Both the position numbers and the translations under genes were made by a program. The notes beneath the pieces were generated by a model, which did no database searches, was not told the origin of the DNA, and saw only the letters and a list, made by a program, of their open reading frames with translations. Positions 3,862 through 55,110 of a stretch of 64,000 bases of DNA are shown in pieces; position 1 is the stretch's first letter; every line of letters starts with the position of its first letter. The stretch is from Ariolimax columbianus (lineage: Eukaryota > Mollusca > Gastropoda > Stylommatophora > Arionidae): NCBI GenBank assembly GCA_036924085.1, contig JAVGWX010000011.1, forward strand, positions 91,818,819 through 91,882,818, given 5' to 3'.

Positions 3862-6800
3862 TCACTTTTCCTTCTCGTCTCGCTTATACAGACAGTTTTT
3901 CCTTCTCGTCTCGCTTATACAGACAGTTTTTCCTTCTCGTCTCGCTTATACAGACAGTTTTTCCTTCTCGTATCGCTTATACAGACAGTTTTTCCTTCTC
4001 GTCTCGCTTATACAGGCAGTTTTCCTTCTCGTCTCGCATATACAGGCAGTTTTTCCTTTTCGTCTCGCTTATACAGACAGTTTTTCCTTCTCGTCTCGCT
4101 TATACAGGCAGTTTTTCCTTCTCGTCTCGCTTATACAGGCAGTTTTTCCTTCTCGTCTCGCTTATACAGACAGTTTTCCTTCTCATCTCACTTATACAGA
4201 CAGTTTTTCTTTCTCGTCTCGTTTATACAGACAGTTTTTCCTTCTCGTCCCAAATATAAAGACAGTTTTCCTTCTCGTCTCGCTTATACAGTTTTTCCTT
4301 CTCGTCTCGCGTATACAGGCAGTTTTTCCTTCTCGTCTCGCTTATACAGGCAATTTTTCCTTCTCATCTCGCTTTTACAGACAGTTTTTCCTTCTCGTCT
4401 CGCTAATACAGACAGTTTTTCTTTCTCGTCTCGCTAATACAAAGTTTTTCATTCTCGTCTCGCTTATACAGACAGTTTTTCATTCTCGTCTCGCTTATAC
4501 AGACAGTTTTCCTTCTCGTCTCGCTTTTACGGACAGTTTTTCCTTCTCGTCTCGCTTATACAGGCAGTTGTCCTTCTCGTCTCTCGTATACAGGCAGTTT
4601 TTTTTCTCGTCTCGCTTATACAGACAGTTTTTCCTTCTCGTCTCGCTTATACAGACAGTTTTTCCTTCTCGTCTCGTTTATACAGACAGTTTTTCCTTCT
4701 CGTCCCAAATATACAGACAGTTTTTCCTTCTCGTCTCGCTTAAACAGGCAGTTTTTCCTTCTCGTCTCGCTTATACAGACATTTTTCCTTCTCGTCTCCC
4801 TTATACAGACAGTTTTTCCTTCTCGTCTCGCTTTTACAGACAGTTTTTCCTTCTCGTTTCGCTTATACAGACAGTTTTCCTTCTCGTCTCGCTTATACAG
4901 ACAGTTTTTCCTTCTTGTCTCGCTAATACAGACAGTTTTTCATTCTTGTCTCGCTAATACAGACAGTTTTTCATTCTCGTCTCGCTTATACAGACAGTTT
5001 TCCTTCTCGTCTCGCTTATACGGACAGTTTTTCCTTCTCGTCTCGCATATACAGACAGTTTTTCCTTCTCGTCTCGCTTATACAGACAGTTTTCCTTCTC
5101 ATCTCGCTTATACATACATTTTTTCCTTCTCGTCTCGCTTATACATACAGTTTTTCCTTCTAGTCTCGCTAATACAGACAATTTTTTCTTCTCGTCTCGC
5201 TTACACAGACAGTTTTTCCTTCTCGTCTCGCTTATTCAGACAATTTTCCTTCTCGTCTCGCTTATACAGACAGTTTTTCCTTCTCGTCTCGCTTATACAG
5301 ACAGTTTTTCCTTCTCGTCTCGCTTATACAGACAGTTTTTTCTTCTCGTCTCGCTTATACAGACAGTTTTTCCTTCTCGTCTCGCTTATACAGTTTTTCC
5401 TTCTCGTCTCGCTTATACAGACAGTTTTTCCTTCTCGTCTCGCTTATACATACAGTTTTTCCTTTTCGTCTCGCTAATACAGACAGTTTTTCCTTCTCGT
5501 CTCGCTAATACAAAGTTTTTCATTCTCGTCTCGCTTATACAGACAGTTTTCCTTCTCGTCTCGCTTTTACGGACAGTCTTTCCTTCTCGTCTCGCTTAAA
5601 CAGACAGTTTTTCCTTCTCGTCTCGCGTATACAGACAGTTTTCCTTCTCGTCTCGCTTATACAGGCAGTTTTCCTTCTCGTCTCGCTTATACAGGCAGTT
5701 TTTCCTTCTCGTCTCGCTTATACAGGCAGTTTTTCCTTCTCGTCTCGCTTTTACATACAGTTTTTCCTTGTCGTCTCGCTAATACAGACAGTTTTTCCTT
5801 CTCGTCTCGCTAATACAGACAGTTTTTCATTCTCGTCTCGCTTATACAGACAGTTTTCCTTCTCGTCTCGCTTTTACGGACAGTTTTTCCTTCTCGTCTC
5901 GCTTAAACAGACAGTTTTTCCTTCTCGTCTCGCGTATACAGACAGTTTTCCTTCTCGTCTCGCTTATAAAGGCAGTTGTCCTTCTCGTCTCTCGTATACA
6001 GGCAGTTTTTTTCTCGTCTCGCTTATACAGACAGTTTTTCCTTCTCGTCTCGCTTGGACAGACAGTTTTTCCTTCTCGTCTCGTTTATACAGACAGTTTT
6101 TCCTTCTCGTCCCAAATATACAGACAGTTTTTCCTTCTCGTCTCGCTTATACAGGCAGTTTTTCCTTCTCGTCTCGCTTATACAGACAGTTTTCCTTCTC
6201 GTCTCCCTTATACAGACAGTTTTTCCTTCTCGTCTCGCTTTTACAGACAGTTTTTCCTTCTCGTTTCGCTTATACAGACAGTTTTCCTTCTCGTCTCGCT
6301 TATACAGACAGTTTTTCCTTCTTGTCTCGCTAATACAGACAGTTTTTCATTCTTGTCTCGCTAATACAGACAGTTTTTCATTCTCGTCTCGCTTATACAG
6401 ACAGTTTTCCTTCTCGTCTCGCTTATACGGACAATTTTTCCTTCTCGTCTCGCATATACAGACAGTTTTTCCTTCTCGTCTCGCTTATACAGACAGTTTT
6501 CCTTCTCATCTCGCTTATACATACATTTTTTCCTTCTCGTCTCGCTTATACATACAGTTTTTCCTTCTAGTCTCGCTAATACAGACAATTTTTTCTTCTC
6601 GTCTCGCTTATACAGACAGTTTTTCCTTCTCGTCTCGCTTATACAGACAATTTTCCTTCTCGTCTCGCTTATACAGACAGTTTTTCCTTCTCGTCTCGCT
6701 TATACAGACAGTTTTTCCTTCTCGTCTCGCTTATACAGACAGTTTTTTCTTCTCGTCTCGCTTATACAGACAGTTTTTCCTTCTCGTCTCGCTTATACAG

Positions 6801-8120
6801 TTTTTCCTTCTCGTCTCGCTTATACAGACAGTTTTTCCTTCTCGTCTCGCTTATACATACAGTTTTTCCCTCTCGTCTCGCTAATACAGACAGTTTTTCC
6901 TTCTCGTCTCGCTAATACAAAGTTTTTCATTCTCGTCTCGCTTATACAGACAGTTTTCCTTCTCGTCTCGCTTTTACGGACAGTTTTTCCTTCTCGTCTC
7001 GCTTAAACAGACAGTTTTTCCTTCTCGTCTCGCGTATACAGACAGTTTTCCTTCTCGTCTCGCTTATACAGGCAGTTTTCCTTCTCGTCTCGCTTATACA
7101 GGCAGTTTTTCCTTCTCGTCTCGCTTATACAGGCAGTTTTTCCTTCTCGTCTCGCTTTTACATACAGTTTTTCCTTGTCGTCTCGCTAATACAGACAGTT
7201 TTTCCTTCTCGTCTCGCTAATACAGACAGTTTTTCATTCTCGTCTCGCTTATACAGACAGTTTTCCTTCTCGTCTCGCTTTTACGGACAGTTTTTCCTTC
7301 TCGTCTCGCTTAAACAGACAGTTTTTCCTTCTCGTCTCGCGTATACAGACAGTTTTCCTTCTCGTCTCGCTTATAAAGGCAGTTGTCCTTCTCGTCTCTC
7401 GTATACAGGCAGTTTTTTTCTCGTCTCGCTCATACAGACAGTTTTTCCTTCTCGTCTCGCTTGTACAGACAGTTTTTCCTTCTCGTCTCGTTTATACAGA
7501 CAGTTTTTCCTTCTCGTCCCAAATATACAGACAGTTTTTCCTTCTCGTCTCGCTTATACAGGCAGTTTTTCCTTCTCGTCTCGCTTATACAGACAGTTTT
7601 CCTTCTCGTCTCCCTTATACAGACAGTTTTTCCTTCTCGTCTCGCTTTTACAGACAGTTTTTCCTTCTCGTTTTGCTTATACAGACAGTTTTTTTTCTCG
7701 TCTCGCTTATACAGACAGTTTTTCCTTCTTGTCTCGCTAATACAGACAGTTTTTCATTCTTGTCTCGCTAATACAGACAGTTTTTCATTCTCGTCTCGCT
7801 TATACAGACAGTTTTCCTTCTCGTCTCGCTTATACGGACAGTTTTTCCTTCTCGTCTCGCATATACAGACAGTTTTTCCTTCTCGTCTCGCTTATACAGA
7901 CAGTTTCCCTTCTCGTCTCGCTTATACATACATTTTTTCCTTCTCGTCTCGCTTATACATACAGTTTTTCCTTCTCGTCTCGCTAATACAGACAATTTTT
8001 CCTTCTCGTCTCGCTAATACAGTTTTTCATTCTTGTCTCGCTTATACAGACAGTTTTTCCTTCTCGTCTCGCTTATACAGACAGTTTTCCTTCTCGTCTC
8101 GCATATACAGACAGTTTACC
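3862..8120. repeat. 31-bp minisatellite, ~138 copies, with 1407-bp higher-order repeat
   Basis: The unit reads ttatacagacagtttttcct plus eleven bases ending tctcgc. Distinctive variant strings recur at exact 1407-bp spacing: the same block begins at 4954, 6361 and 7768, and another at 5976 and 7383. So about 3 kb of the array consists of a duplicated super-unit of ~45 monomers. The copies differ by few substitutions, so the segmental duplication is young relative to the monomers. Confidence 0.95.
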
Positions 8121-11790: not shown

Positions 11791-12054
11791 TGTGCCATCA
11801 GATTGAGCAGAACATCATCGCAGTGTTCGGACCGCGCGCGGACAACCTGGCTGGCTACGTCAACTCGTTGTGTGCCTCCTTGCAGATCCCTCACCTGGAG
11901 ATGAGGGGCGACTCTACAGGGCCCCTGGGTGCCCCAGCCCACGCGTTGACAGTCAACCTGTATCCAGCGTCCCAACAGATCGGCAAGTCCTACACTGACC
12001 TCATCTCATTCTACGGCTGGTCAGACATGCTGGTCGTGTATGGCTCTCATTACG
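11791..12054 (+). CDS. GRIK-like: Glutamate receptor exon 1 of window (amino-terminal domain)
   Basis: A pyrimidine-rich acceptor ending in ccacccccag precedes the exon and the donor gtacgt follows it. The first two bases complete a codon begun in the previous exon and the last base starts a glycine codon completed by the next one. It reads CHQIEQNIIAVFGP, then a helix/strand stretch with NLYPASQQIG and LISFYGWSDMLVVYGS. This is the LIVBP-like amino-terminal domain of kainate receptors: the FGP motif, then the part that ends in the VVY strand. The Cys at the second codon falls where kainate receptors have one half of an amino-terminal-domain disulfide. No stop codon occurs in 264 nt. The upstream exon is not recognisable between 1 and 11,790. 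Confidence 0.9.
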
Positions 12055-12760
12055 GTACGTGTCGTCTGTGTACGTATCGTGTGTGTACGTGGGAGTGTAC
12101 GTGTCGCGTGTGTACGTGGGGGTGTACGTATCGTGTGTGTACGTGTCTTGTGTGTACGTGGGAGTGTACGTGTCATATGTGTACGTGGGAGTGTACGTGT
12201 CGTGTGTGTACGTGGGGGTGTACGTATCGTGTGTTTACGTGTCTTGTGTGTACGTGGGAGTGTACGTGTCATGTGTGTACGTGGGAGTGTGCGTGTCTTG
12301 TGTGTACGTGTGAGTGTACGTGTCTTGTGTGTACGTGTGAGTGTGCGTGTCGTGTGTGTGAGTAAGAGTGTACGTGTCGTGTGTACGCCGGGAGTCTACG
12401 TGTCGTGTGTGCGTGAGAGTGTACGAGTCGTTTGAGTGCGTGGGAGTGTACGTGTCGTGTGTGTGGGTGAGAGTGTACGTGTCGTGTGTGTGCGTGGGAG
12501 TGTACGTGTCGTGTGTGTGGGAGTGTACGTGTCGTGTGTGTGGGTGAGAGTGTACGTGTCGTGTGTGTGTGTGCGTGGGAGTGTACGTGTCGTGTGCGTG
12601 GGAGTGTACGTGTCGTGTGTGTGAGTGCGTGGGAGTGTACGTGTCGTGTGTGTGTGCGTGGGAGTGTACGTGTCGTGTGTGTGTGCGTGGGAGTGTACGT
12701 GTCGTGTGTGTGTGCGTGGGAGTGTACGTGTCGTGTGTGTGTGTGGGAGTGTGGATGTAT
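12055..12760. repeat. GTACGTG-rich minisatellite starting at the exon 1 donor
   Basis: Degenerate units such as gtgtacgtgtcgtgtgtgt alternate with gtgggagt. The donor of exon 1 (gtacgtgtc) is itself the first element of this pattern, so GTACGT occurs repeatedly through the array. Confidence 0.9.
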
Positions 12761-13971: not shown

Positions 13972-15721
13972 ATTACAGAGAATATACCAAGAAGAGTTCA
14001 TAGCTCAATGTTTGCAGACGATCTGGCTATGTGGACCTCTGAAAAAAATATCACCATAGCAAGAAATCGGATGCAGCAGGCCCTAACATCGCTGGAAGAG
14101 GGGGCGAACTCATAGCTGGTCAAAATAAACGAGGAAAAAACCACATGTACAATATTCTCGCTATCAATCAAACCCAAAAACCCAAAATTAAGTTTAAATG
14201 GCAAATTCCTGCAGGCAAACGACAACCTAAACTACCTGGGAGTCACATTTGATCGGCGCATGACATGGAAAAGTCAGATTGAGAGAAACCGAATGCGAGC
14301 CAGAGAAAGAATGGCAATCATGAGGAAACTTGCTGGCACAAGCTGGGAAGCAGACGAAAGCATACTAAAGAAACTGTACACTGGAAGAGTGAGACCAGTT
14401 ATCGAGTATGGCATTGCGGCATGGACAACAGCAGCAAAGGCGAACTTCGATAAAGTTAGCAAACTCCAAAACCAAGCCAGGAGAGTTATAACAGGAGGCA
14501 TGAAGTCAACGCCAATTGTAGAACTTGAAAAGATTACAAAACTGCAATCCATGACCGACAGAAGAGACTGCAGAGCCCAGCTGCAATCAAAGAAACTCAG
14601 AAGACTGACTGACCATCCAATGCACCAGAGACTGAACAATTTCGGAAATGGGAAACTAAAGCGAAGAAACTTTGCAGAAATAGCCAAAGCAAAGATGCAC
14701 GAAGACCCCATGAACGCACTAACAATACCAAAGCCCATCCCTACTGTACGAAAACCGACCTGGAGGCAGCATATATTTCCAGAGGTGGTAGAAAATATAT
14801 CAGGTATTAGAAACAAAAACTGCCAGTCTGAAAAAGAAAGAAGAGATACTACCCTGAGTAACATAACGGAAAACTACCCAAGCATAGACTGGACCCATGC
14901 ATACACCGACGGTTCCGTAACAAATTGCAACACAGAACGGAGGGCAGGAGCATTCCTGAGCTTACCAAATGGCAGAAAAATAACACTGTCATTCGCTACT
15001 GGAAAATACACACGCAATTTCAGAGCGGAGGCAGAGGCACTGAGGGCGGCAGTGGAAGAAATGGTGACAGGTAAAAGGAATGAAAGCCATATAGTCCTGC
15101 TTACAGATGCACTGGCCGTAGTCACAGCACTGAAAAGCCAGAAAAATACTGAACTTAATGATTTAAGAGCAGTACTCTGTCAACTATGCCAGCAGGCCAC
15201 ACCAAAAAGAGTAGTGGTGCAGTGGGTCCCATCTCACTGCAACATCCAAGGCAACGAGGAGGCAGACAGACTGGCAAAAGAAGGTGCAAAACTACCACAA
15301 CAAGATACTAGTATAACATACGAAGAGTCAAAACGGCTTATTAGAGCTAGATACATGACCAAATGGGAAACAGAACATACTGGCTACACCAAAAACGATG
15401 CCTATTACCAGTTGAACAGAAGAGAGCAGGTCGTGGTCTTCAGACTCCGCACTGGCCACAATAGACTGAGGTACCACCTATTCAACAAATTGAAGATATG
15501 TGGTACTGACGAATGCCCGTGCGGTACTGGGAAAATGACCGCTGAACATCTGCTGCAAAACTGCCCGACATATGAGGATCAGAGAGAGCAGATGTGGCCA
15601 TCACAAGTGGCAACACTAGACAAGTTCTATGGCAGTGTCGACAGCCTCAGAATGACCGCTGCTTTTTTCGAGAAAAAAAATGGTTACTGTCTGACTGCGT
15701 ACGAAGAAGAAGAAGAAGAAC
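13972..15721 (+). mobile_element. Jockey/I-group-like LINE, 5'-truncated, near-intact 3' half
   Basis: One frame runs from ITENIPRRVHSSMFADDLAM (catalytic FADD at 14,011-14,022) through the rest of the reverse transcriptase (NYLGVTFDRRMTW; VRPVIEYGIAAWT), a long connector, and a ribonuclease H domain. The latter shows YTDGSV at 14,902-14,919, AEAEALRAAVEE, LLTDALAVV and VPSHCNIQGNEEADRLAK. After it comes a Cys/His motif (CGTDECPCGTGKMTAEHLL..C), as in Jockey/I-superfamily elements. One in-frame TAG at 14,113-14,115 replaces what is probably a Trp codon; otherwise the frame is open for about 590 codons. It ends in (GAA)6. Both flanks are the 22-bp array with cctgac at each junction, a possible target-site duplication. 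Confidence 0.92.
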
Positions 15722-16390
15722 CTGACTGGACTGTTTATTGCCCTGACCGGACTGTTTATTGACCCCGACTGGACTGTTTATTGACCCTGACTGAACTGTT
15801 TATTGACCCTGACTGGACTGTTTATTGACCCTGACTGGACTGCTTATTGATCCTGACTATACTGTTTATTGATCCTGACTATACTGTTTATTTACCAAAA
15901 CGGAACTGTTTACTGACCCCGGTGGAACTGTTTAATGACCCCAACGGAACTGTTTATTGACCCCGACTGGACGGTTTTTTGACCTCAACTATTTTGTTTA
16001 CTGACCACCAACTGAACTGCTTATTTACCCCAACTAGATTGTTTATTGATTCAAACTGGATTGTTTATTGATCCAAACTGGATGGAAATTGATCCAAACT
16101 GGATTGTTTATTGATACAAACTGGATTGTTTATTGATCCAAACTGGATTGTTTATTGGTCCAAACTGGATTGTTTATTGATCCAAACTGGATTATTCATT
16201 GATCCAAACTGGATTGTTTATTGATCTAAACTGGGTTGTTTATTGATCCAAACTGGATTGTTTATTGATCCAAACTGGATTGTTTATTGATCTAAACTGG
16301 ATTGTTTATTGATCCAAACTGGATTGTTTATTGATCCAAACTGGATTGTTTATTGGTCCAAACTGGATTGTTTATTGACCAGATACTGAA
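15722..16390. repeat. 22-bp minisatellite, right part (~30 copies)
   Basis: Begins as cctgactggactgtttattg units and drifts into gatccaaactggattgttta units. Together with 13,895-13,971 it forms one array interrupted by the LINE. Confidence 0.93.
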
Positions 16391-34833: not shown

Positions 34834-35007
34834 GACATCGAGTCGATAGATATGGAAGACTACCGCCACAACTACGTTAACCTGACTGGCTTCCGATTGG
34901 TTGACCCTGGTGACCCCTACGTCCGGAACATCATCCATGACATGGAGATCTACGAGATGCAGACGGACCTCAGCCTGTTGAACACCACGGGCTACCTGTC
35001 CCTGCCG
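34834..35007 (+). CDS. GRIK-like: Glutamate receptor exon 4 of window (amino-terminal domain)
   Basis: The exon is 174 nt, phase 0 at both ends, acceptor tatattccag, donor gtgagt. It reads DIESIDMEDYRHNYVNLTGF, corresponding to the kainate segment with D.EPYRY..VNMTGF, then a helix VRNIIHDMEIYEMQ and ends GYLSLP. NLT and NTT are potential N-glycosylation sites. The acceptor abuts a 15-bp array. Just downstream, the last ~40 nt of the exon with its donor are duplicated (35,038-35,080) and a shorter third piece ends in another GTGAGT at 35,108. Use of either later donor would add 70 or 100 nt and shift the frame, so the first is taken as the real one. Confidence 0.92.
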
Positions 35008-35037
35008 GTGAGTTGTTCCTGTCGTGAGTCAGAGGGA

Positions 35038-35116
35038 CCTCAGCCTGTTGAACACCACGGGCTACCTGTCCCTGCAGGTGAGTCAGACGGGTTACCTGTC
35101 CCTGTCGGTGAGTTGT
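35038..35116 (+). repeat. Duplicate of the exon 4 end with 5' splice site
   Basis: 35,038-35,080 repeats the last ~40 nt of exon 4, followed by its own donor (cag|gtgagt at 35,078). A shorter third copy (ttacctgtccctgtcggtgagttg) ends in a donor at 35,108. Similarity to the exon is almost complete, so the duplication is recent. Confidence 0.93.
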
Positions 35117-46832: not shown

Positions 46833-46937
46833 GCAGGCGAGTGGAGGGTGACCTCTGGCATCAACGTCACTCACGGGGAGAACCAAATCTACGGCAACCC
46901 CTTCGGTAACAAGACGCTCGTCGTCACCACCTTGAAG
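46833..46937 (+). CDS. GRIK-like: Glutamate receptor exon 7 of window (linker into S1)
   Basis: The exon is 105 nt, phase 0. It encodes AGEWRVTSGINVTHGEN, then NKTLVVTTLK, which corresponds to the kainate linker (W....GLNMT) and the first strand of S1 (RTLIVTT). NVT and NKT are potential N-glycosylation sites. The acceptor gttgtccacag was chosen over an AG four bases later because only the first keeps the frame. The donor AAG|GTGAGT is the first of at least seven GTGAGT sites spaced at roughly 28 bp through the array that follows. Confidence 0.92.
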
Positions 46938-47290
46938 GTGAGTGTTGGGTTCAGGTGTGCACAAGGTGAGTGTTGGGCTCAGGTGTACAGAAGGTGACTG
47001 TTGGGTTCAGGTGTGCAGAAGGTGAGTGTTGGGCTCAGGTTAGTGCTGGGCTCAGGTGTGCAGAAGGTGAGTGTTGTGCTCAGGTGTGTAGAAGGTACGT
47101 AGGGCTCAGGTGTGCAGGAGAAAGGTAGGGCTCAGTGGGTGCAGAGGGTAGGTAGGGCTCAGGTGTGCAGAAGGTGAGTGTTTGGTTCATGTGTGCATAA
47201 GGTGAGTGTTGGGTTCAGGCGTGCAGAAGGTGAGTTATGGGTTCAGGTGTGCAGAAGGAAGGTAGGGCTCAGGTGTGCAGAAGGTAGGTT
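46938..47290 (+). repeat. 28-bp repeat carrying copies of the exon 7 donor
   Basis: Units aaggtgagtgttgggctcag followed by gtgtgcag. The real donor at 46,938 is the first copy. GTGAGT recurs at about 46,966, 47,022, 47,067, 47,173, 47,200 and 47,229, each preceded by AAG. Later units degenerate (ggtacg, ggtagg). Confidence 0.93.
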
Positions 47291-48208: not shown

Positions 48209-48403
48209 GAAGCCCCGTTTGTGATGGAGAAAGCCAAGTCCACACCTGAGGATCCATTAGAGGGATTCTGTATCGATCTTGCCCGCGAGCTGGCCCACAT
48301 TGTGGGCTTTAACTACCGTATAGAACTTGTGCCAGATGGAAACTACGGCTCGAGGACAGAGAAAGGAGAGTGGGATGGGATGGTGAGAGAACTGATAGAT
48401 GGG
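48209..48403 (+). CDS. GRIK-like: Glutamate receptor exon 8 of window (S1 ligand-binding lobe)
   Basis: The acceptor is tctctcttctccag and the donor gtgagt; 195 nt, phase 0. It reads EAPFVMEKAKSTP, then LEGFCIDLARELAHIVGFNY, then LVPDGNYGSR and GEWDGMVRELIDG. These are the S1 hallmarks of non-NMDA receptors: E.P(Y/F)V, the F.G(Y/F)C(I/V)DL helix, the DG.YG loop whose Tyr stacks on the bound glutamate, and W(N/D)GMV.EL. The exon end and donor have been copied about five more times just downstream (46-bp units). The preceding 900 bp is a 30-bp array that supplies the pyrimidine-rich region before the acceptor. Confidence 0.95.
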
Positions 48404-48640
48404 GTGAGTCGGAGAGTGTGATGGGATGGTAAGAGAGCTGATAGATGGGGTGAGTCGAAGAGAGGGATGGGAGGGTGAGAGAGCTGATAGATGGGATGAG
48501 AGAGTGAGATAGAATGGTGAGATAGCTGATAGATGGGGTGAGTCGGAGATTGGGATGGAATGGTGAGAGAGCTAATAGATGGGATGAGTTAGAGTGTGAG
48601 ATGGGATGGTGAGAGAGCTGATAGATGGGGTGTGTAAGGG
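48404..48640 (+). repeat. 46-bp repeat made of the exon 8 end plus donor, ~5 further copies
   Basis: Each unit repeats the exon end (gagagagctgatagatgggg) and continues into tgagtcgg. GTGAGT is preserved at about 48,450 and 48,538, and altered in the units near 48,496 (atgaga), 48,583 (atgagt) and 48,630 (gtgtgt). Confidence 0.95.
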
Positions 48641-48649
48641 ATCAAGAAT

Positions 48650-49700
48650 CAAGAGAGGGTCGTCATAGATGGCACAGACAGAGACAACAATCGGACACGT
48701 CACTCCAGCTGAGACGATAGCCATGGAGGAAGAATGGGTCCAAGCTGGTGATAGAATGATAGAGTACCAGAGAGGCATCATCAACTTAGGCAAGGAATGC
48801 AGAGAACAGAGCAACCGGAGAGCAGAGCACGGGGTAAATCAGCTGATAACTGAGAACACTCAGGAGAGTGACGCTGTCATATACACCGACGGATCAGTGT
48901 TGCGCAGTGGGACATCAGGCTGGGGTTTCTCGGATAGAGTGAGAGGAGAGGTCGTGGCTGAGCGCAGTAGGACATACATGTCAACAACCCCCAGTATGAG
49001 AATGGAGACGGAAGCAGTGACCTCAGCACTGAAATGGATATCTGAGACTTCTATAACAAGGACAGTCATTTTGACAGACGCGCAAGCCGTACTTAAGAAA
49101 GTATAGAAGGGATGGCTTAGGTACGAGTGGATAGCAGCCGTTGAGGCCTGAAACCACCAGGTCCTGTTCATGCCGGGGTTCAGGGCAACGATATAGCTGA
49201 CATCTCGGCTTCACAAGCTCCCGCGCCTTTTAGTGATGCATGAAAAGTCCAGTGAACCATAGCATAACTGCCGTATAGGAGTGAGAGGTTAGCGATCTCA
49301 CATTTCAAAGGCTCGGCTATATGAGGGCGGTAGCCATCTCTTCTCCCTCGCCGCTTTTACTTCCGGGATTAACCGGTACCCATTTAAGTCTGGGTCGACC
49401 CGGGAACCGTTGCCGTCTGAACAAAGATTTCCGCCTCAACTGGGGAATAAACCCAGAACTCTCAGTTGCGAAGCCAGCTCGCTAACCACTGCGCGACGCG
49501 GCTCACTAGTTATGGATAGGAATTACATTTTGAAATCAATCAATGACCGCCTGTTGGATGAGGACACTGATTGAGGACAGCAATCCACAGACTGCATAGT
49601 GTCGGCATCAACCAAAGTTCGATAGAAGTAGGACGCATGAGAGGAGTGTACAACCATCGATCTACATCCCAACCCACCACACTTTGCTGAGAGCGTCAGA
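48650..49700 (+). mobile_element. Jockey/I-like LINE RNase H fragment (same family as 20.5-23.3 kb)
   Basis: The + strand encodes ETTIGHVTPAETIAMEEEWV, then IYTDGSVLRSGTSGWGFSDR, METEAVTSALKWISETS and ILTDAQAVLKKV before a stop at 49,104. It aligns closely with the complement of 20,700-21,360. The tail after the stop also matches (tttgaaatcaatcaatgacc) but is split by a SINE at 49,239-49,506. This lies in the intron between exons 8 and 9. Confidence 0.9.
49239..49506 (-). mobile_element. tRNA-derived SINE inserted in the LINE fragment
   Basis: On the minus strand the element begins gtgagccgcgtcgcgcagtg. It carries a box A-like cagtggttagcgagctgg (49,474-49,491) and a box B-like gggtttattcccc (49,442-49,454), then a ~180-bp body with aatgggtaccggttaat. 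It interrupts LINE sequence that is continuous in the other LINE copy. Flanks tagtgatg (49,231-49,238) and tagttatg (49,507-49,514) look like an 8-bp target duplication with one change. No poly-A tail is evident. Confidence 0.85.
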
Positions 49701-53234: not shown

Positions 53235-53415
53235 AGAGCTGACCTAGCCATAGCCCCCCTGACCATCTCATACATCAGGGAGCAGGTCATCGACTTCACC
53301 AAGCCTTTCCTCAACCTCGGCATCAGCATCCTCTTTAAGATGCCCAGCAAAGAGAAGCCTGGTCTATTCTCATTTCTCAACCCGTTGGCCCTAGACATTT
53401 GGTTATATGTGATAG
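53235..53415 (+). CDS. GRIK-like: Glutamate receptor exon 9 of window (S1 to start of M1)
   Basis: The acceptor is gcctcttacag and the donor gtaagt; 181 nt, entering in phase 0 and leaving one base into a glycine codon. It encodes [20 protein letters not shown], then [14 protein letters not shown] and [17 protein letters not shown]. The P-L-T and Arg residues of APLTIS.IR are the glutamate alpha-amino and alpha-carboxyl contacts in the family. FSFLNPL leads into M1 (IWLYVIGAYL). The threonine in PLT is the AMPA-type residue; many vertebrate kainate subunits have Ala there. The last 25 bases plus donor are the founder of the 38-bp array filling the next intron. Confidence 0.95.
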
Positions 53416-54598
53416 GTAAGTCAAGTCTGAGAACTAGACATTTGGTTATATGTGATAGGTAAGTCAAGTCTGAGAACTAGACATTTGGTTATATGTGATA
53501 GGTAAGTCTGAGAACTAGACATTTGGTTATATGTGATAGGTAAGTCTGAGAACTAGACATTTGGTTATATGTGATAGGTAAGTCTGAGAACTAGACATTT
53601 GGTTATATGTTATAGGTAAGTCTGAGAACTAGACATTTGGTTATATGTTATAGGTAAGTCTGAGAACTAGACATTTGGTTATATGTTATAGGTAAGTCAA
53701 GTCTGAGAACTAGACATTTGGTTATATGTTATAGGTAAGTCTGAGAACTAGACATTTGGTTATATGTGATAGGTAAGTCAAGTCTGAGAACTAGACATTT
53801 GGTTATATGTTATAGGTAAGTCTGAGAACTAGACATTTGGTTATATGTGATATGTAAGTCTGAGAACTAGACATTTGGTTATATGTTATAGGTAAGTCTG
53901 AGAACTAGACATTTGGTTATATGTGATAGGTAAGTCTGAGAACTAGACATTTGGTTATATGTTATAGGTAAGTCTGACAACTAGACATTTGGTTATATGT
54001 TATAGGTAAGTCTGAGAACTAGACATTTGGTTATATGTTATAGGTAAGTCTGAGAACTAGACATTTGGTTATATGTTATAGGTAAGTCTGAGAACTAGAC
54101 ATTTGGTTATATGTGATATGTAAGTCTGAGAACTAGACATTTGGTTATATGTTATAGGTAAGTCTGAGAACTAGACATTTGGTTATATGTGATAGGTAAG
54201 TCTGAGAACTAGACATTTGGTTATATGTTATAGGTAAGTCTGAGAACTAGACATTTGGTTATATGTGATAGGTAAGTCTGAGAACTAGACATTTGGTTAT
54301 ATGTGATAGGTAAGTCTGAGAACTAGACATTTGGTTATATGTTATAGGTAAGTCTGAGAACTAGACATTTGGTTATATGTGATATGTAAGTCTGAGAACT
54401 AGACATTTGGTTATATGTGATAGGTAAGTCTGAGAACTAGACATTTGGTTATATGTGATAGGTAAGTCTGAGAACTAGACATTTGGTTATATGTGATAGG
54501 TAAGTCTGAGAACTAGACATTTGGTTATATGTGATATGTAAGTCTGAGAACTAGACATTTGGTTATATGTTATAGGTAAGTCTGAGAACTAGACATTT
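53391..54598 (+). repeat. 38-bp array of the exon 9-intron junction, ~32 copies
   Basis: The unit is the last 25 bases of exon 9 (ctagacatttggttatatgt then gatag) followed by gtaagtctgagaa. The first unit includes the genuine exon end at 53,391-53,415. Nearly all later units keep an AG|GTAAGT; a few read tatgtaagt. The first two units and a few later ones have a 5-bp insertion (gtaagtcaagtctg). A gataggtaag/ttataggtaag polymorphism marks sub-blocks. Confidence 0.97.
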
Positions 54599-54870
54599 GT
54601 TATATATAAGTCTGACAACTAGGCATCTGTTATATGTAAGTCTGACAACTAGACATTTGTTATATATAAGTCTGACAACTAGGCATCCGTTATATGTAAG
54701 TCTGACACCTAGACATCTGTTATATATAAGTCTGACAACTAGACATTTGTTATATATAAGTCTGACAACTAGACATCTGTTATATATAAGTCTGACAACT
54801 AGACATTTGTTATATATAAGTCTGACAACTAGACATTTGTTATATATAAGTCTTGCCTGTGGACATCTGT
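54590..54870. repeat. 30-bp derivative of the exon 9 junction array, ~9 copies
   Basis: Units ctagacatttgttatatata plus agtctgacaa, a shortened form of the 38-bp unit that has lost the central tggttatatgtgatag segment and the GTAAGT consensus (now ataagt or gtaagt). Confidence 0.94.
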
Positions 54871-54942
54871 TGAAGGTAAGTGTAGTCCTAGTGTTATGCG
54901 TAACACATATGCAGGGACATTTACCGCCCCCACATTCCCCAG

Positions 54943-55110
54943 GGGCCTATCTGATCGTGAGCTTCACCATCTACGTCCTGGGCAGGTTCAGCCCGTACGA
55001 GTGGCACAACCCTCACCCCTGCAACCAGGACCTCGACACCGTCACCAACACGTTCAACATGTCCAACAGCCTGTGGTTCACAGTCGGCACTCTCATGCAG
55101 CAGGGCTCAG
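54943..55110 (+). CDS. GRIK-like: Glutamate receptor exon 10 of window (M1 and pore loop)
   Basis: The acceptor is cccacattccccag and the donor gtcagt; 168 nt, starting two bases into a Gly codon and ending one base into the next. It encodes the rest of M1 ([20 protein letters not shown]), the kainate-type NPHPCN segment, a polar linker and the pore helix [16 protein letters not shown]. The Q/R/N site residue is Gln (codon CAG), so the unedited channel is predicted calcium-permeable; whether the transcript is edited cannot be seen. The following exon (M3 with the SYTANLAAF motif) was not found before 64,000. Confidence 0.96.

Follow-up and report, generated by a model that had tools for sequence, protein, structure and literature searches.

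The window, the whole 64-kb stretch of Ariolimax columbianus DNA analysed here (genome size 2.29 Gb), contains ten exons, A to J, which when joined give a single open frame of 523 amino acids. The joined product carries ANF_receptor (PF01094, 1.8e-39), Lig_chan-Glu_bd (PF10613, 3.4e-42) and Lig_chan (PF00060, 1.2e-15) domains and has GluK2 as its top PDB match. Its top protein matches among molluscs are named kainate or GRIK2-like, with gastropods at the head (Plakobranchus at 72% across the full query, Candidula unifasciata at 83% across 78% of it). Based on domain content and nearest relatives, the host gene is identified as a kainate-type ionotropic glutamate receptor.

Exon I, 181 nt long and preceded by eight exons in the joined frame, encodes the last part of the ligand-binding lobe and runs as far as the start of M1. 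Its terminal sequence is CTAGACATTTGGTTATATGTGATAG, and GTAAGTC begins the intron. The introns on either side measure 4831 bp upstream and 1527 bp downstream, both longer than the roughly 250 nt taken as the criterion for exon definition. The positions of this exon, of the array that overlaps its end and of the other features discussed below are given in Table 1.

Tandem repeats make up 58% of the window as called by TRF. Long arrays of many differing units occur at 704-2888 (23 bp x 95) and 3866-8117 (31 bp x 139). Long open frames at 14116-15759 and 48669-49103 resemble, by eye, fragments of retrotransposon reverse transcriptase/RNase H.

Table 1. Exons, repeat arrays and splice sites in the window, numbered from its first nucleotide.
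Feature	Position	Strand	Remarks
Exon A and repeat starting near its donor	11791..12752 (exon 11791-12054)	+	GTACGTGTCG-like unit; junction score 11
Exon D and two extra copies of its end	34834..35115 (exon 34834-35007)	+	each copy followed by GTGAGT; junction score 29
Exon G and 28-bp array	46833..47285 (exon 46833-46937)	+	array starts at donor GAAG/GTGAGT; junction score 12
Exon H and 46-bp array	48209..48632 (exon 48209-48403)	+	unit of exon end plus GTGAGTC; junction score 29
Exon I (exon 9 of the preliminary description)	53235..53415	+	open frame; acceptor TTACAG, donor GTAAGT
Junction-seeded array	53391..54588	+	31 head-to-tail units of 38 or 43 bp
First donor GTAAGT	53416..53421	+	the only one of 34 keeping frame into exon J
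Shortened, decayed units (nine)	54589..54856	+	eight of 30 bp, one of 28 bp
Tail with last isolated AGGTAAGT	54857..54899	+	GT at 54876 (donor G)
Exon J	54943..55110	+	M1 to pore region; acceptor outside the repeat units

Anatomy of the exon I array

Each unit of the exon I array consists of the 25-nt end of exon I followed by GTAAGTC(AAGTC)TGAGAA, an intronic share of 13 or 18 nt. With head-to-tail units in the range of roughly 10-60 bp, the array has the layout of a minisatellite. The last 25 bases of exon I are identical to the unit, and the first five copies, that of the exon included, match at 25/25 positions. The full-length units number 31, or about 40 when the decayed ones are included, both counts coming from one assembly only.

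TRF reports 31.5 copies of 38 bp (95% matches, score 2110), in agreement with a preliminary description that had counted about 32 copies of the exon end with GTAAGT and had proposed that they were seeded from the exon/intron junction. The 38-bp unit with the last 25 exon bases described there accounts for 27 of the 31 units, the other four being 43 bp long. The array had been placed at 53391 to 54870; its start stands as given, but full units stop at 54588 and the remainder is made up of the shortened units, seven of nine of which have lost the GT, and the tail. As had also been noted, the intron offers dozens of near-identical strong donors: it holds 34 GTAAGT, 28 as AGGTAAGT and 6 as ATGTAAGT.

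Tandem arrays can be mis-sized by assemblers, and the exon I array could in principle reflect a repeat that was collapsed or over-expanded. However, its units differ from one another (38- and 43-bp forms, G/T variants and the decayed subfamily), and independent arrays of different sequence lie at other junctions and in a duplicate of the gene, making an assembly artefact highly improbable.

Recurrence at other junctions

Junctions of the receptor genes were scored by searching for a near-copy of the 33-mer that spans them (25 exonic and 8 intronic nt) within 400 bp, a score of at least 17 counting as a pass. A junction test on the window gave high local scores at three of its ten donors, those of exons D and H (29 each) and of exon I (33); the other seven score 9-12 and the ten acceptors 6-10. 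The array at exon H spans 48365-48632 (TRF, 5.9 copies), with about six copies of the exon end in all. The arrays at exons A and G, the latter with almost no exon sequence in its unit, were left out of the case count given their junction scores of 11 and 12.

Further receptor genes, retrieved through protein matches and not through their repeats, have exon-end arrays as well (L024, L037 and R2 27811). In L019 an array lies at the donor with little exon sequence; its score is 16, and it was not counted. On the acceptor side, L021 (C24:36188447-36191647, minus strand) has an acceptor-spanning array that includes the exon start AAAGCTGACATG with its CAG, in at least seven copies upstream of the real exon within the stretch examined; a second acceptor case is less clear. 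The array at exon I is therefore not the one-off that it had been taken for, as the arrangement recurs at exons D and H, in the duplicate gene and elsewhere among the receptor genes.

Protein models suggest that a second snail, Bulinus truncatus, also has an array at junction D. Six copies of LLNTTGYLSLP occur in its model P0007, and in five of these V-S comes next, as translation of GTRAGT would give; model P0005 has a single copy. In P0007 a donor array at exon D has probably been translated as if it were coding.

A duplicate receptor gene with its own array

The receptor gene is duplicated on C23, along with a similar inverted neighbour, and the exons of the two copies are 74-83% identical. 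Such a duplicate is consistent with the genome duplication described for stylommatophoran land snails (PMC12328838). The intron at the exon I junction is also present in this copy, where the same junction carries eight donor-bearing 42-bp units (TRF, 8.4 copies), then about 640 bp of other sequence and three diverged 42-bp units (L011 and L039, near 39899200-39900400). The split array and its more diverged 42-bp subfamily suggest that the array is old. Since the units are similar, at 43 bp on C11 and 42 bp on C23, shared ancestry and repeated seeding fit equally well. No exon-derived array was found at exon H of the duplicate (junction score 7), and exons A-G of this copy were not found in 39870001-39912422. 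In the inverted neighbours (L014/L024 and R2 21659/22866) the intron follows the D codon, 19 nt upstream of the position corresponding to 53415 as counted by eye from curated boundaries; the intron position thus differs between the receptor gene and its inverted neighbour relatives.

If exchange or conversion between the exon I tail and the array rewrote the start of M1, the two would evolve in concert and the minisatellite would edit the protein. Between C11 and C23 the last 25 nt of exon I differ at 8/25 positions and the rest of the exon at 22/156 (Fisher P=0.039, in a small test whose comparison was picked after the data had been seen), and two of the four amino-acid differences in the exon fall within those last 25 nt. 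The window has L-D in the exon I tail, and all eight molluscan proteins aligned (P0001, P0002, P0003, P0006, P0007, P0008, P0024 and P0097) have I/V-E. However, L-D is also found in the insect protein P0117 and L-E in the ribbon worm protein P0109, and concerted evolution of the exon tail with the array is doubtful.

A functional array, whose copy number or redundant donors regulated splicing or receptor amount, would account for a position common to both duplicates and for the retention of AGGTAAGT in 27 of the 31 full-length units. Yet intact donors are equally explained by recent homogenisation, use of the alternative donors leads to stops or frameshifts (see below), other introns are filled by similar arrays without donors, and exon H is arrayed in one duplicate and not in the other. 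Such a regulatory role, which includes the tuning of receptor output by copy number offered as one of two options in the preliminary description, is very unlikely.

Frequency of junction-seeded arrays

For the receptor genes, 39 donors and 40 acceptors with curated boundaries, a few of them set by hand, were surveyed. The donors of 13 exon rows and the acceptors of 10 rows were left out, either for want of a confident boundary or as seen twice in overlapping loci, as were rows without any boundary. An automatic junction scan had been discarded in favour of the curated boundaries, as it gave high scores at non-boundary positions.

Arrays start at 7/39 donors and 2/40 acceptors, while only 0.2% and 0%, respectively, pass when the junctions are tried on the introns of other exons. 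All seven passing donors are the first copies of their arrays; the seven are interdependent, since the receptor gene itself supplies three (D, H and I) and its C23 duplicate one more. Arrays start at 3.9% of 6,170 non-coding 33-mers from three receptor regions, and 47.7% of these 33-mers fall outside any array. Use of 3.9% as the background (P=7e-4) was rejected as too favourable to the claim for donors. As a donor cannot sit within an array, the conditional value was used instead, by which 7.6% of free positions begin an array. Against it donors are enriched about 2.4-fold (P=0.025), and without the exon I junction the count is 6/38 donors (P=0.064). The acceptors, at 2/40, show no excess over the 7.6% background. 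Arrays reach to +40 of the donor in 20/39 cases and to -40 of the acceptor in 10/40, lying nearer to donors than to acceptors, as expected if the branch site and pyrimidine tract have to be kept clear.

Outside the receptor genes, 19 donors and 14 acceptors from 20 myosin-head loci were placed by hand. None of the 19 donors reaches the threshold and one of the 14 acceptors does (L049, score 18); a visible array at the L049 donor scores 14, below threshold. TRF repeats cover 23% of the myosin flanks and 49%, 59% and 35% of receptor regions R1, R2 and R3. Genome-wide, AGGTRAGT occurs in triples at a spacing of 12-42 bp 23,442 times (10,521+12,921) and the reversed-pattern control 19,291 times (9,874+9,417), a ratio of 1.2-fold that is rough since matches cluster inside arrays. 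Given that ratio and the myosin donors, a special genome-wide class of donor arrays was mostly rejected.

It could be that 5' splice sites are hotspots of array birth owing to their sequence, to transcription-linked breakage or to R-loops, in which case arrays would mark donors well above chance. The difference between donors and acceptors and the P value of 0.025 against the conditional background point in that direction, as do the arrays at the exon I junction of the C23 copy and, apparently, at junction D in Bulinus. But the myosin donors provide no case, with L049 just below threshold, the genome-wide excess over the reversed pattern is slight, and the receptor donors are not independent. 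Donor-specific seeding is accordingly judged unlikely. Read most simply, a repeat-rich genome that tolerates duplication at exon edges yields such junction arrays, favouring donors modestly at most.

Consequences for splicing and the reading frame

When each of the 34 donors was spliced to exon J in silico, the first kept the frame, 32 led to a stop, and the second shifted the frame, which nonetheless stayed open through exon J. The expectation that most alternative donors would frameshift or truncate the channel is borne out. Read-through past the first donor had been thought to meet a TAA in the first intronic unit; the first in-frame stop lies instead at 53460, within the second donor.

Splicing used the upstream donor exclusively in five human minigenes that are exon-defined and carry two identical CAG/guaagu donors (PMC9225289). 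Given a 181-nt exon I and flanking introns of 4.8 and 1.5 kb, exon definition and use of the first donor would be expected here as well. Like the intron after exon I, the minigenes have several equal CAG/guaagu-type donors after one acceptor, and they would predict the first donor; unlike it, they carry two designed donors rather than dozens. Selection of the first donor by exon definition, the other option of the preliminary description, fits these published data, although the analogy is limited, as the data are human and the transcriptome survey in the same report describes a preference for the downstream donor under strict intron definition.

Discussion

The exon I array probably arose through a tandem duplication across the junction in a repeat-rich genome, followed by expansion, with the first donor used and the array tolerated. 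Under this scenario, the duplication would have had its breakpoints 25 nt before the end of exon I and 13-18 nt into the intron, copying the exon end together with its donor. Slippage or unequal exchange may then have grown the copies to about 40 units. The exon would have been left whole at the left edge of the array, leaving the protein unchanged, and the spliceosome would take the first donor by exon definition and pass over the other 33 as intron. Because exon definition should select the first donor, the array would be tolerated and close to neutral. More generally, junction-seeded arrays may arise at about the rate expected from the many tandem arrays of the genome. Random seeding alone leaves the donor excess over background (P=0.025, or 0.064 without the exon I junction) unexplained, and a modest donor preference at most may be involved.

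The suggestion that no such class of repeats had been described was too strong, as tandem duplications that cross an intron-exon boundary are known, and so are AGGT segments present several times within an intron, in both cases with few copies (PMC4974935). In the potato RdRp gene described there, the duplicated segment likewise extends over a splice junction without altering the original protein; it is a single duplication on the acceptor side that makes a new intron, whereas the exon I array has dozens of copies on the donor side inside an existing intron. Intron gain from AGGT segments also involves a short AGGT-bearing segment in several tandem copies, but as described the intron is new and spans two to four copies of a purely exonic unit, while the present unit is half exon and half intron with the acceptor outside the units. 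The Rogers AGGT model accordingly does not describe this intron: the donor is within the unit, but the acceptor at 54942 is outside the units, 66 nt past the last GTAAGT, and exon J begins with GGGCC, not GT. The growth hormone gene of Sparus aurata resembles the receptor gene in having minisatellites in an intron of a protein-coding gene (PMC3045353); the available part of that report does not describe their unit as including an exon end or donor. A literature search that left subscription journals mostly outside its reach found no paper on splice-donor-seeded arrays. Relative to the known cases, what is new is the far larger copy number, the native donors and the recurrence within one genome.

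In a genome rich in tandem repeats, a splice donor is thus often inside an array (7/39 of the receptor donors tested). Annotation should take this into account, as an array appears to have been taken for coding sequence in one Bulinus model, P0007, and not in the other. Naturally occurring genes in which dozens of equal 5' splice sites compete would provide a test of the first-donor rule. For the organism, donor-seeded arrays would be a route to longer introns without a change in protein, and possibly a means by which a minisatellite changes coding sequence.
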